Below, piece by piece: positions 13,892 to 19,984 of a stretch of DNA of 59,116 bases. The DNA is from Rubrobacter sp. (GTDB lineage Bacteria; Chloroflexota; Chloroflexia; Thermobaculales; Thermobaculaceae). The stretch spans positions 1-59,116 of the forward strand of contig JADDPT010000058.1 in the NCBI GenBank assembly GCA_016781735.1. The letters are read 5' to 3'. Both the position numbers and the translations under genes were made by a program. Position 1 is the stretch's first letter; each line of letters begins with the position of its first letter. The notes below the pieces were generated by a model. It was not told the origin of the DNA, made no database searches, and saw only the letters and a list, made by a program, of their open reading frames with translations.

Positions 13892-14452
13892 CTACTCGGA
13901 GTACAGGTGCGGCTTCAGCACGCCTATGTACGGCAGGTTGCGATAGAGGTCTCGAAAGTCGAGGCCGTACCCGACGACAAAGAGATCCGGTATCTCGAAC
14001 CCAATCCAGTCAAGCTCTACGTCCACTGTGCGCCGCTCCCGTTTGTCGAGTAGAGCGCATACTTTGATGCTTGAAGGTTGTCGTGCGCGTAGATTGTCGA
14101 GCAGGTAGGAGAGCGTAAGTCCCGTGTCGACGATATCCTCGACCACGATAACGTCCCTACCCTCGATGTTGCGATCCAGGTCCTTGAGGATGCGGACGGC
14201 TCCGCTGGACCGGGTGCTCGCGCCGTACGAGCTGACCGCCATTACGTCGAGCGTCAGAGGTATCTGACAGGCGCGGATGAGGTCGGCGAGAAACATCATC
14301 GCACCGTTCAGCACGCCGAGGAATATCGGCGTAGAGGATGCGTACTCACTCCGAAGCTGTGCACCCAGCTCATCTACCCGTGCCAGCAACTCAGTCCGCG
14401 GGATCAGCACGCGGTCTATGTCCGTCTCCAAAGGCGCCTCCTCTCCATCCAC
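13892..14452 (-). CDS. hpt: hypoxanthine phosphoribosyltransferase
   Basis: GVLNGAMMFLADLIR, VMAVSSYGASTRSSG, DVIVVEDIVDTGLTLSYLL. Confidence 0.95.
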   Translation of the reverse strand: MDGEEAPLETDIDRVLIPRTELLARVDELGAQLRSEYASSTPIFLGVLNGAMMFLADLIRACQIPLTLDVMAVSSYGASTRSSGAVRILKDLDRNIEGRDVIVVEDIVDTGLTLSYLLDNLRARQPSSIKVCALLDKRERRTVDVELDWIGFEIPDLFVVGYGLDFRDLYRNLPYIGVLKPHLYSE

Positions 14453-14516: not shown

Positions 14517-14545
14517 TTGACTTTAGAACATACGTTCTATATAAT
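14517..14545 (+). promoter_or_regulatory. sigma70-type promoter: TTGACT -35, 17-nt spacer, TATAAT -10
   Basis: -35 at 14517-14522, -10 at 14540-14545, spacer exactly 17 nt. Confidence 0.8.
14524..14539. promoter_or_regulatory. putative LexA (SOS) box TA-GAACATACGTTC-TA inside the promoter spacer
   Basis: GAACATACGTTC (14526-14537) matches the core of the Bacillus-type LexA consensus CGAACRNRYGTTYG, with palindromic TA flanks. Confidence 0.65.
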
Positions 14546-14583
14546 GGAGGTCGGCATGCAGTTGACGCGAGGAGGTCTACGCC

Positions 14584-14832
14584 GTGAGTCTCTACCCCTG
14601 TCTGGACGAATACAGGAGATACCGTTCCTTCCCTTGCACCCGGTGTACCGCCCCTTCATGCTGGATGGGCAAGAAGCCAACCCCCTTGCGCAAGGTCGTG
14701 CTGCACGAGGGGCAGCGCCTCTGCGATCACTGCAGCACTCCCTACCACGCCAGCGGCCGGAACCGCTACTGTACTGAAACGTGCAGGTACCAGGCGATGA
14801 TGAAGCGCAGGAGGGCACGCAGGGCGGCGTAA
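14584..14832 (+). CDS. small zinc-ribbon-like hypothetical protein (82 aa)
   Basis: GTG start 7 nt after AGGAGGT (14570-14576); CTRC...CDHC...YCTETC cysteine pairs and a basic C-terminus MMKRRRARRAA. Confidence 0.75.
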   Translation: MSLYPCLDEYRRYRSFPCTRCTAPSCWMGKKPTPLRKVVLHEGQRLCDHCSTPYHASGRNRYCTETCRYQAMMKRRRARRAA

Positions 14833-15347: not shown

Positions 15348-18131
15348 TCAACCCCGCCTTGCACGGTTCTTCGCGAGTCGTAGCCGGTCCATAGGATCCG
15401 TCTCCATCGGCTCGGTCGCGTCAGTCTGTTCCGACTCGCCGGTTGGTTCAGCCGCTTCCATTGGCGGTGGCGCCACTGCCTCTGGGACAGGAGGCTCAGT
15501 GTGTGGCTGCGGAGCGGCCGTCTCCAGGTTAGCCGCGGGGGGCACGGTTCGGCGCGTCGTCCTGAGTGCGCGCAGATACCCGGACTTTAGTCTCCGCACG
15601 GCGACCTCCAGCGGCAGCAGCAGGAGGGCGAGCAGAGTGAGGGGCCACCAGAGGGGGCGAGTAGAGACCACGGCGGACAGATCGTGCCTGTAGGCATGCG
15701 CCGGCACGCTCAGCTCGCGCCCCCCGGTCAGCGACGCCATCTTCGTCAGCGTCAACTGGTTTGTGCCAAGAAACCTGTACTCCGGCGAGTAGCCGACCGC
15801 GAAGCCTGTCGTGGGGGCGTGCGAGACCTGCCCAGCTGCAGCCAGCGAGACCGAGGTGATGTAGGAGCCCTGCTCAGTTGCCGGTATTGTAGCCTCGTAC
15901 CGGCCCGGAGCGGTTTGAATTAGTCTAGCCTCGGCGAGCTCGTTGCTGGGAGACATGACGTCGATCTTCCCCTGCGCGCCGTTGAGGAATGCACCACCCG
16001 GCTTCAGAGCGTCCACGATCACCTTGGCTTTCCCCCCGGACTGGGCGATCTCTACCTGCAGGTTCTCCGACGGACGGGCAAGCACCCAGCCAACTGACTG
16101 GGACCACAGGCGGGCGTACTCCGTGGTGCCGATCCAGTTCGCGGACCAACGGCTCTTGGCGTCGGAGGTCCAAGCCACCGCCCGGCCGAGCCCGTACTGC
16201 CACTGCGCGAGGACTGGGTCCTTCTCCGGTGAGGAAAGAGCCACAGAGGCTGTCGGCTTCGCGGTCGTTCCAACGTATCCGAGCAGGGATGGAATGCTGT
16301 CGAGCCCCTTGAGAACCGGCGAAGGAGCTGTGATGGAAGGTGTGAACTCCTTTTCCTGGATGTAGTTACGCATCTTCAGACGGGTCTCTTTTACGAAGAT
16401 CTTCGGTATCTGAGAGTTGTCCCGTGCGACGTAGTAGGCGCCGTTCCCCTTCTCAGCGATACTTCTGAGCAAGTTTGGAGAGCCACCACCCGCCGAGACG
16501 GTGCTGACGGTGATCCCTGCTGATCGAGCCTCTGCCAGGAGGTCGTCGTAGTTCCCGGTCTCGCTCCAGCCGTCGGTGAGTAGGATGACGTGCTTGATGC
16601 TCGCCTTGCTGGTCTTGAGGCTGCGGACTGCGTCGGCGAGCCCGCCGTAGATATTTGTGCCGCCACCGCCCTGGATTCCTGCCAACGCGTCTCCCACGTC
16701 TCCCGCATCACCAACTGGCTGAGTGTCGATGACCCACCTGGCTGCTGTGTCGAACGCGACCACGCCGAACTCGTCCTCAGGGCTTAGGAGTTGGGCCGCC
16801 TGGAGCGCGGCCTCCTTAGCGACGTCCACCTTCGGCGCCTCGCCCGCAGCCACTCCCCCCTCGCCCGTGTGGGACTCAGCCATACTGCCCGACTTGTCTA
16901 TCGCCATGACCATTGCCACGGCCGGGTCCTTCTGCTTATTCTTCAGCCGCGACTCCACGGGCAGTGTCGCCTCCAGCGGCGAGTTGAAGTAGTTGCCGAG
17001 CGCGTAGCTCTGCTCGCCGCCGACGGCGACAAGTCCCCGGCCGAGGTCGCGCACGTATGTCTGTAGCAGTCTGCCCTCGTCCGGCAGCGCCTCCAGCGGC
17101 ACGTCGACGAGAGCTGCCGCCGCGTACTCGCTGAGACCAGCGAGCGAGCGTGTCAGGCGAGAGACGTTCGTACGCGTAACGTCGAGACCGGTGGCTTTCA
17201 GTGCTGCCTCGAGGTTGCCGCCCTCGCCATCCTCCTCTTCCGCCACGAGCACTCGTGGAGGGCTCTCTATGTATGTGAACGCGGCCCCGGCGTTATTCTG
17301 GTGCACGGAGTCGCCTTCTCCCACGACCCGCGCCTGCCACCGCCTGAACCCCTTCTGTTGAGGACCCACATTGACGATGTAGGTATTACTGCCCGCCTGG
17401 ATGTCCACCGGTCGCTGGGCTATTACGGTGCCATCACCCAACAACTCGAGCGTGCCCTTACGCGGATCGGTGCTGGAGACCTCGACCTCTATCTCGAAAC
17501 TCTCGCCTCTCCGCACGCGCGGGGGCGCCTTCACTGCCTCGATCGAGACATCGTTGCGGCGGGTCTCACCGAGCGCATGGGTCTGTATCTGCGCCCCCGC
17601 AACCGCGGCCAACCTGGCTGCCTCCTCGATGTCGCCCACGTTGTTGTTGCCATCGCTGAGGAGCACGATGCGCTTCTGCGTACCTTCCGGAAAGAGTGCC
17701 AGCGCGAGTCGGATGGCGGAGGGAATATCCGTTGCTGTGGCGTCGGGATAGGAGAGGACCTCTCCCAACTCCCTCCTCTCGTCTACGTCGTGCTCGACAA
17801 GCGGGTCCTTGCCGAAGAGGATCAGTCCGGTCCGGTCGCTCGGTCCAGCGTTCTTGTACGCCTCGCGTACCCATTCGAGCCCGCTGGTGCGGCCTTCCGG
17901 TCCCAGGCTGTCGGAGGCGTCGACCACGAATACCACGGAGAGCTTGTCCTGCGGCACGACGAGCGAGGCGCCCGCGATGGCGAGGATGAGGAACAGGACA
18001 GAGGCCGTGCGCAGACCAACGATGACCCACGTTCGGCGAGTACGCCGTGCTCCTCGGAGCCCCAGCCACACGAGCCCGGGCAGCAGCGCGAGCAGGAGCA
18101 GCAGGAGTGGCTGGGAGAAGGTGATGCTCAC
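15348..18131 (-). CDS. vWA-domain membrane protein (BatA/glutamine amidotransferase-like family)
   Basis: VVFVVDASDSLG and MVMAIDKSGSMAES MIDAS-like motifs. GTG start at 18131 forms a GTGA overlap with the upstream gene; the track ORF extends 31 codons further. Confidence 0.85.
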   Translation of the reverse strand: MSITFSQPLLLLLLALLPGLVWLGLRGARRTRRTWVIVGLRTASVLFLILAIAGASLVVPQDKLSVVFVVDASDSLGPEGRTSGLEWVREAYKNAGPSDRTGLILFGKDPLVEHDVDERRELGEVLSYPDATATDIPSAIRLALALFPEGTQKRIVLLSDGNNNVGDIEEAARLAAVAGAQIQTHALGETRRNDVSIEAVKAPPRVRRGESFEIEVEVSSTDPRKGTLELLGDGTVIAQRPVDIQAGSNTYIVNVGPQQKGFRRWQARVVGEGDSVHQNNAGAAFTYIESPPRVLVAEEEDGEGGNLEAALKATGLDVTRTNVSRLTRSLAGLSEYAAAALVDVPLEALPDEGRLLQTYVRDLGRGLVAVGGEQSYALGNYFNSPLEATLPVESRLKNKQKDPAVAMVMAIDKSGSMAESHTGEGGVAAGEAPKVDVAKEAALQAAQLLSPEDEFGVVAFDTAARWVIDTQPVGDAGDVGDALAGIQGGGGTNIYGGLADAVRSLKTSKASIKHVILLTDGWSETGNYDDLLAEARSAGITVSTVSAGGGSPNLLRSIAEKGNGAYYVARDNSQIPKIFVKETRLKMRNYIQEKEFTPSITAPSPVLKGLDSIPSLLGYVGTTAKPTASVALSSPEKDPVLAQWQYGLGRAVAWTSDAKSRWSANWIGTTEYARLWSQSVGWVLARPSENLQVEIAQSGGKAKVIVDALKPGGAFLNGAQGKIDVMSPSNELAEARLIQTAPGRYEATIPATEQGSYITSVSLAAAGQVSHAPTTGFAVGYSPEYRFLGTNQLTLTKMASLTGGRELSVPAHAYRHDLSAVVSTRPLWWPLTLLALLLLPLEVAVRRLKSGYLRALRTTRRTVPPAANLETAAPQPHTEPPVPEAVAPPPMEAAEPTGESEQTDATEPMETDPMDRLRLAKNRARRG

Positions 18132-19984
18132 GCCGCCCGCCTCCGGCCGGCGCGCCGCAAGCTTCGGCTGTACAGCCACCACTCGAGTAGGAGCACGCCG
18201 AGAGCGAGAGCGACGAGCGGCCACCAGCGCTCGCGACCCGCGGAGCGGGGGGCTTCGCCTCGTACCTCACCACCCTGCTTGAGAGGGATCGGGGAAAACG
18301 CTGTGACGTTCGATTCCCGCTCACTGCCCGCGTTAACGAAGAAGCGAGACACGAGCCGGTCTCCGCTTAGAACCTCGTACACTCCCGATTGCGCCGTGTC
18401 CGCGTAGGTGGTGGAGGCGCCAGCTGCTTGTGTGCTCTGCCCGTCGGGTGCCCTCACAATGGTGGGCACTCCCTGCGCCGATGGAGGCACCGGCACCACA
18501 GCGCCCGGGCTGACCGCCCCCGACACGGTCGTGACGCCTCGGGGCTTGAGGTAGCGCATCAAGTTGTCAACGAGGATGGGGAATGCTACCTGCAGCGGAA
18601 GGTCGGAGTCCTCGGGCGCGAAGGCGAGCGCGGCCACCCTTCTGCCTTTCTCTTCGCCCGCCACGAGCAGCGGGATGTCTCCTGAGGAGGCAAGCACCTC
18701 CATCCACGGAGGCGGACTCAACCTCTTCGCGCGGCCCGCGCTGACCTGTGTGAGGTCCGCAAAGCGGAGCAACAGGCTATCCTGACTCTGCTTCGTGACG
18801 GCAAGTCCCTCCTCCTCTCCCGTCACGGGCAGCAGGGGGCTGTTGGGTGGCGCGAGCAGCAGGAGGTTGCCCTGTGGCAGCGTGGAGGGTAGCTCACTGT
18901 TGAGGATGTAGACATCGTACCCAGGCTTGATCGCGGCGCCAGGCGGGGCTTTCTCGACCTCGAGTCCGTCAACAAGGGAGAGCGCACGCTCCAGGAAGCG
19001 GCTCTCCCCGCCCGCGAGCAGCACTCGGGCTGGCGGTCCCTCGGAGTCAACAAACCACCCGGCGTCATCGGCCAGGAGCGCGTTGTCGACCTCGGGGCGG
19101 AGCGCGCCGTCTGTGGTCAAATGGACCTCGATGACTCCACCACTCGGGATGTCCCTGAGAGAGACGCCGCTGGTGCCGTTTGCAGGCAGGTCCACCTCCA
19201 CGGCGTCAACAAGCTTGTCATCCACGCTCAGCGAGAGCCGGCCCTTACGTGCCGATCCGTAGTTACCCAAAGACACCCATAACTCCCGACCGGCCACGCC
19301 GGATCGCGCGGATACGGAGAGGACTGCCGAGTTCGCGCTCTCACCTCTAACGCTCTCGAACCTGACCGGGTATGGCAGCGGTGCGGGCTCTTCTTGCACA
19401 GGCCCACCGTCGCCGACGAGCACAACTGTGGGCTCCCGTAGCCTGCCCGCGATCGAGCGAGCGAGGATAGCTGCGTTGTGCAGGTTGCCCTCGCCGTATG
19501 GCTGCGACAGGTCCGCGAGAGCACGGTCAACGACGCCTGCGTCGGTGGTGGGGCCGGCGAGTAGTCGCGGCGTAGGTCCGGCGGAGATAAGGGCGACGCG
19601 CCTGCCCGCGCCCTTGTTCGCCACCAGCTCGCGTACCCGCTCCTTCGCTTGCTCGAAACGGGAGGGAGCGATGTCCCGCGCTGCCATGGACCCGGAGGTG
19701 TCGAGCATCAGGACGAGGTCGCCGCCCGGCACGTCCGCGGAGCGGATGAGCGGCCGCGCGAGCGCGAGCACGAGCGCCGCCAGGATGAGCAGTTGAAGCA
19801 GCAATAGCAGGTTGCGGCGCAGCTTCTGCCAGGGCGCGTTTGCCTGTACCTCCTCAAGCGCCTGTTGCCAGAGAGAGGTGCTCGGCACCGGCATCTCTTC
19901 TCGCTTGGGTTTGAGGAGGTACAGGAGCACGAGCGGTACGCTCAGGAAGCCCAGCGCTAGTGCGAGTGGCGCCACGAAGCTCAT
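18128..19984 (-). CDS. vWA/BatA N-terminal (aerotolerance regulator-like) membrane protein
   Basis: FLSVPLVLLYLLKPKREEMPVPSTSLWQQAL N-terminus; DLVLMLDTSGSMAARD vWA motif. Confidence 0.85.
   Translation of the reverse strand: MSFVAPLALALGFLSVPLVLLYLLKPKREEMPVPSTSLWQQALEEVQANAPWQKLRRNLLLLLQLLILAALVLALARPLIRSADVPGGDLVLMLDTSGSMAARDIAPSRFEQAKERVRELVANKGAGRRVALISAGPTPRLLAGPTTDAGVVDRALADLSQPYGEGNLHNAAILARSIAGRLREPTVVLVGDGGPVQEEPAPLPYPVRFESVRGESANSAVLSVSARSGVAGRELWVSLGNYGSARKGRLSLSVDDKLVDAVEVDLPANGTSGVSLRDIPSGGVIEVHLTTDGALRPEVDNALLADDAGWFVDSEGPPARVLLAGGESRFLERALSLVDGLEVEKAPPGAAIKPGYDVYILNSELPSTLPQGNLLLLAPPNSPLLPVTGEEEGLAVTKQSQDSLLLRFADLTQVSAGRAKRLSPPPWMEVLASSGDIPLLVAGEEKGRRVAALAFAPEDSDLPLQVAFPILVDNLMRYLKPRGVTTVSGAVSPGAVVPVPPSAQGVPTIVRAPDGQSTQAAGASTTYADTAQSGVYEVLSGDRLVSRFFVNAGSERESNVTAFSPIPLKQGGEVRGEAPRSAGRERWWPLVALALGVLLLEWWLYSRSLRRAGRRRAA

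Follow-up and report, generated by a model that had tools for sequence, protein, structure and literature searches.

Does the small gene at positions 14517-14832 of the DNA analyzed here, a stretch of 59,116 nucleotides (the window), belong to the DNA-damage response of its host, and what might its product do? The question arises from a near-consensus promoter whose spacer is occupied by a palindrome, and from the 82-aa protein encoded behind it. A sequence-only reading of this locus had taken the palindrome for a LexA box and the product for a zinc-ribbon orphan of no recognized family. Here we compare the promoter, the gene and its product with those of related genomes and with known zinc-finger proteins.

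Results

A predicted LexA operator occupies the promoter spacer

The -35 hexamer TTGACT (14517-14522, forward strand) and the -10 hexamer TATAAT (14540-14545, forward strand), both read directly and recovered by a promoter scan, are separated by a 17-nt spacer (14523-14539). The predicted LexA operator TAGAACATACGTTCTA (14524-14539, forward strand) takes up 16 of these 17 bases and directly adjoins the -10 element; its palindromic core, GAACATACGTTC, lies at 14526-14537. A ribosome-binding site that can be read directly, AGGAGGT (14570-14576, forward strand), stands 7 nt before the GTG at 14584, which is the first possible in-frame start of the 82-codon ORF (14584-14832, forward strand), with none earlier. 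The promoter, the spacer palindrome, AGGAGGT and the GTG-initiated ORF had all been described by the sequence-only reading, and each is present where it was placed.

Within the 550 bases scanned, TTGACT-17-TATAAT was the sole promoter-like match (11 of 12 positions), and shuffling the window gives an expected count of 0.00 for the composite promoter-operator pattern. We scored the site with an SOS matrix built from the sites of recA, lexA, an imuA-like gene, dnaE2 and a 218-aa gene, leaving the window gene out. It reaches 25.8 bits. The next-best site in the 59-kb window has 9.9, and 30 shuffles went no higher than 14.5.

The operator is conserved along with the gene

The gene is carried by six of the seven genomes of the family, including that of the window, and the orthologs are 75-78% identical. 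The composite TTGACNNTAGAACNNNNGTTCTATANNAT lies upstream of the gene in all six carriers and occurs exactly once in each whole genome, while its reversed control gave zero occurrences in the genomes scanned. When the upstream regions are aligned, TTGAC (invariant in the six orthologous copies), TAGAACA and GTTCTATA are nearly invariant, in contrast to the flanks and the central bases (ATAC, AAAT, ATTT); the palindrome is kept inside the promoter spacer in every one of the six copies, that of the window included. The coding sequence is constrained as well: dN is 0.02 and dS 0.68-0.77 in near pairs, with a dN/dS of about 0.03 in the informative ones, and codon position 3 changes far faster than positions 1 and 2 (e.g., 0.31 versus 0.02). 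The ORF thus encodes a genuine protein, kept by purifying selection, and selection acts on the operator along with it.

The divergent neighbor, a phosphoribosyltransferase gene that is of the hypoxanthine type by sequence (13892-14452, reverse strand; PF00156, E = 2.4e-26), is kept next to the gene in five of six genomes (68-71% by tblastn beside the orthologs). On the other side, the gene at 15348-18224 (reverse strand) is convergent with the small gene and encodes a protein of 958 aa that has VWA and glutamine-amidotransferase-like domains. The seventh genome, G004 (Thermobaculum-like), has lexA and other copies of the protein family and has no copy behind the composite promoter; the SOS response of the bacterial family as a whole therefore does not depend on the gene.

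The same motif marks the SOS genes of these genomes

The genome that contains the window is a draft of 1.9 Mb in 136 contigs, 78% complete. It holds a single lexA gene (TIGR00498 at C136:10161-10793, 177 bits, over the cut-off), and lexA is single-copy in each of the seven family genomes. The lexA promoter, TTGACA-cGAACATGTGTTCgcaac-TATAAT, has a 17-nt spacer holding a GAAC-N4-GTTC box, GAACATGTGTTC, an arrangement identical to that at the window site. The recA operator, TAGAACATATTTTCTA, has one mismatch and lies 56 nt before the recA start, and TAGAACATTTGTTCTG precedes a RecA-domain gene that we label imuA type, a label which is our reading of its RecA domain, small size and LexA box. Whether the lexA and recA promoters share the operator of the window gene thus receives a positive answer: lexA, recA and the RecA-like gene all carry GAAC-N4-GTTC, or one-mismatch versions of it, immediately upstream.

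The longer motif TAGAACANNTGTTCTA is found with at most one mismatch at four sites in the 1.9 Mb, namely before recA, the RecA-like gene, a conserved 218-aa gene and the window gene. With up to two mismatches it is enriched genome-wide, with 8 sites versus 1 for the reversed control. No such enrichment is seen for the bare core GAAC-N4-GTTC (24 sites in the genome versus 37 for its reversed control), whose other sites fall mostly within coding frames. Since the bare core is no commoner than the control, it is not evidence when taken alone, and we count the longer motif as such.

Across the family, the motif precedes lexA, recA, imuA-like genes (four genomes) and dnaE2 (three genomes; identified by its PHP and DNA_pol3_alpha domains), and also, in one or two genomes each, a DUF5131 gene and a radical-SAM-like one. 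The regulon further takes in the 218-aa gene and three more small conserved genes with no Pfam match. GAAC-N4-GTTC is the known Gram-positive LexA motif (PMC3323433), and the Streptomyces motif is tCGAAC-N4-GNNCGa (PMC9380542). The Gram-positive-type regulons of Bacillus, Mycobacterium and Streptomyces share with the one described here an identical core operator overlapping promoters, as well as lexA, recA, error-prone polymerase genes and genes of the radical-SAM type. They differ in that the outer bases are TA..TA here and (T)CG..CG(A) there, in the several small genes without family assignment found here, and in the host, a member of the Chloroflexota. Judged by its sites and gene content, the predicted Chloroflexota regulon is an ordinary Gram-positive-style SOS regulon plus some undescribed members. 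We found no published LexA regulon for this lineage in the open-access literature.

The undescribed genes are small. One of 80-88 aa (MFLLWYDDTKKKPVEEKILEGIERY...) has, in four genomes, a TATAAT-like element immediately followed by a LexA box that lies about 34 nt before the start of the gene (L086, L093, L099, L106). A second, of 94-97 aa (LEDAGPYEEYYSPSEIRRLRR...), has a LexA box in three genomes (L083, L088, L095), and a third, of 78-90 aa (MHLEDAIDDQPEHSAVLYEPG...), has a one-mismatch box in four (L082, L089, L092, L103); none of the three has a match in Pfam or PHROG. The 218-aa gene (MKKEFIIERQGK...; L008:363-1016, reverse strand) and its counterparts in five other genomes carry the box in six of six cases. 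It matches PHROG_22961 at 2.9e-5 and no Pfam family and, by eye, is a candidate for resemblance to single-strand-annealing proteins. Two weaker LexA-like sites in the window's genome (L097:1871-1886 and L009:2248-2263) stand before unknown genes, one of 115 aa with a CDC...W motif and the other of about 218 aa beginning VVNGYREPEQ.

The interpretation of the palindrome as a LexA box has therefore survived each comparative check that we ran, be it on the lexA and recA promoters, on the palindromes of the orthologs or on the conservation of the ORF. We consider it close to certain, from these promoter comparisons, that the gene is under predicted LexA control, and LexA binding and induction by DNA damage are very likely.

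A small basic protein with two cysteine clusters

The 82-aa product has eight cysteines, at positions 6, 18, 21, 26, 47, 50, 63 and 67, a basic C-terminal helix, and 18 lysines and arginines versus 5 acidic residues. In an alignment of 18 family members, the first four cysteines (C6, C18, C21, C26) form an N-terminal Cys4 cluster with the pattern YPCLDExRRYRSFPCxxCxAxxC (14599-14661, forward strand), in which P5, C6, Y13, C21 and C26 are invariant. C18 is replaced only in two divergent copies, the other seven of the eight cysteines being invariant; the basic tail is kept across the family along with C6, C21, C26, C47, C50, C63 and C67.

The C-terminal half (14722-14832, forward strand) is predicted to be a treble-clef zinc finger ending in a long basic helix. 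The AlphaFold model has a hairpin at residues 44-55 followed by a helix at 65-81 (pLDDT 84-93) and places C47 and C50 in the knuckle of the hairpin and C63 and C67 at the start of the helix, as the fold class demands. No confident fold is predicted for the N-terminal half (pLDDT 51-56), which was still unfolded in a second AlphaFold run with a paralog placed first. A more fitting description than "zinc ribbon" is a treble-clef finger accompanied by a second Cys4 cluster. The protein very probably binds zinc.

That the product has no recognized family was confirmed, as it matches nothing in Pfam (E up to 10), NCBIfam or PADLOC. PHROGs gave only generic weak treble-clef matches, and a PDB sequence search returned a single match at chance level (RAG1). 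The term orphan has to be dropped, since orthologs and paralogs exist.

Paralogs in integrative elements and beside a response regulator

Full-length relatives are found only in this bacterial family, in 7 of the 158 genomes of the class; a search of 400 genomes of the phylum gave only matches to the C-terminal half outside the family, and a protein search of viral contigs, phage records and plasmid records gave no relative. One match in Arthrobacter (L053, from genome contigs) was dropped, as it covers 24 residues in a frame without the cysteine pattern. On this sequence distribution, the product is a member of a multi-copy family whose full-length forms are confined to Thermobaculaceae-like Chloroflexota.

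We assign the window gene to group A, which is predicted to be LexA-regulated. Paralogs of group B are about 50% identical to it, occur in all seven genomes and have no LexA box. Upstream of them (L056, L057, L058, L059, L060, L061, L067) invariant TTTAC/GTTAC repeats, about 11 bases apart, precede TATACTCC, and in several genomes the group B copy follows an OmpR-type response-regulator gene. These repeats look like a PhoP/PhoB-type operator. In the protein tree, the LexA-boxed copies are not resolved as one clade, and the only firm split sets group B and one element copy apart from the rest.

Some other copies are found in integrative elements. In L062 the order is a Replic_Relax gene, the paralog, an HTH_17 gene and a tyrosine integrase; in L063 it is a primase/AAA gene, the paralog and a tyrosine integrase, with no HTH_17-type gene between the last two. 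A further copy (L064) lies beside a replication gene, and another (L055:31-558, reverse strand) is encoded in frame behind a Trans_reg_C winged helix. This fused copy adjoins a 487-aa gene with weak HTH matches. Taken together, these contexts suggest exchange, in either direction, between the chromosome and mobile elements, and the elements, the winged-helix fusion and the response regulator favor a DNA-associated role. From fold class, charge and gene context, we lean slightly toward DNA binding as the main activity of the modeled protein, although the same three features also fit RNA or protein binding.

The position of the L062 and L063 paralogs between a replication gene and a tyrosine integrase, and the fusion of one copy to a winged helix, could also mean that the family consists of recombination directionality factors (excisionases) or regulators of integrative elements, the window copy having been domesticated for the damage response. 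However, L062 holds a separate HTH_17 gene of the excisionase type in the usual excisionase place, between paralog and integrase, so its paralog is unlikely to be the excisionase itself. Furthermore, there is no integrase among the ORFs around the window copy, which keeps its neighbor gene across genera. We regard this explanation as unlikely, while giving it more weight than the three alternatives of the next section.

Comparison with known zinc-finger proteins

Fold comparison with Foldseek gave no significant match, with E-values of 0.03 or worse; the ordered list holds the CGNR finger 3h0n, gyrase-bound YacG (4tma) and phage HNH-type fingers. The CGNR finger of Jann_2411 (3h0n) has been proposed to bind DNA in stress-related regulation (PMC2954205). 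Like the window protein as modeled, it is a C-terminal treble clef with two knuckle cysteines and two at the N-terminus of a basic helix. In contrast to CGNR proteins (PF11706), the window protein has no CGNR motif and no ABATE domain, carries a second Cys4 cluster instead and, matching no Pfam family at E up to 10, does not fall within PF11706. With the DUF2116 "probable treble clef" (PF09889) and phage HNH/NinG fingers it shares a CxxC...YCSxxCR pattern. The matches to DUF2116 and PHROG families are sub-threshold, span the C-terminal half only and include no nuclease domain. Those to PF09889 come from paralogs, the best at 20.0 bits versus a gathering cut-off of 26.8; the window protein has none.

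The resemblance to YacG raises a different scenario, in which the gene encodes a damage-induced gyrase inhibitor or protector of the YacG/GyrI kind, the treble clef docking on gyrase and not on DNA. In its favor, Foldseek places gyrase-bound YacG among its top matches (probability 0.60, TM 0.63 on the target). YacG inhibits gyrase and is likewise a small zinc-finger protein, and GyrI/SbmC is induced in the SOS response (PMC10886550). However, the Foldseek E-values are above 1, there is no match to the YacG Pfam family at E up to 10, and what the two proteins share is a treble clef of the generic kind. The window protein also has its extra N-terminal Cys4 cluster. To our knowledge, YacG has neither such a cluster nor a long basic helix. 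A role on gyrase thus appears improbable.

Similar palindromes are used by other regulators, and a repressor other than LexA might act at the site, but in these very genomes the motif marks lexA, recA, imuA-like genes and dnaE2, which makes another repressor very improbable. A chance ORF behind a promoter serving, e.g., a small RNA, which the short ORF, the GTG start and the lack of a known domain might suggest, can be given practically no credence: it is refuted by codon-level purifying selection, orthologs and paralogs share the cysteines, and the absence of a match in an Rfam scan gives it no support either way.

Discussion

Our analysis argues that the gene for the 82-aa protein belongs, as a single-gene unit, to the LexA (SOS) regulon. 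Because the LexA switch in the promoter core is conserved in all six carriers, it is almost certain that the gene takes part in the DNA-damage response. The fuller proposal, a LexA-repressed, damage-induced gene for a DNA-binding accessory or regulatory protein, is in our judgment probable on the basis of these genome comparisons.

In an undamaged cell, LexA would sit on TAGAAC-N4-GTTCTA, covering the spacer and touching the -10 element, and RNA polymerase would be excluded. Upon DNA damage, RecA filaments would lead to self-cleavage of LexA. Once LexA is gone, the near-consensus promoter would fire strongly, resulting in a burst of a small and very basic zinc protein. The product, related to small proteins of integrative elements and itself encoded on the chromosome, would then bind DNA and in this way play an accessory or regulatory part during damage.

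More tentatively, it may represent a kind of SOS effector that is new: a small DNA-binding protein with two zinc sites, taken over from integrative elements by the core LexA regulon of a single Chloroflexota lineage. There it would control replication, recombination or gene expression after damage, with a sister copy beside an OmpR-type response regulator that would answer another signal. We see this as a possibility of less than even weight.

These findings provide direct sequence evidence that this lineage, for which we found no such regulon published, has a LexA regulon with TAGAACANNTGTTCTA as its operator, and they extend the DNA-damage response by a family of small proteins that had not been described. 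Of the other conserved genes in the regulon, at least four are without a Pfam family and constitute a shortlist for new damage-response functions. Finally, the relatives found in integrative elements hint at exchange between mobile elements and the SOS response of their hosts.
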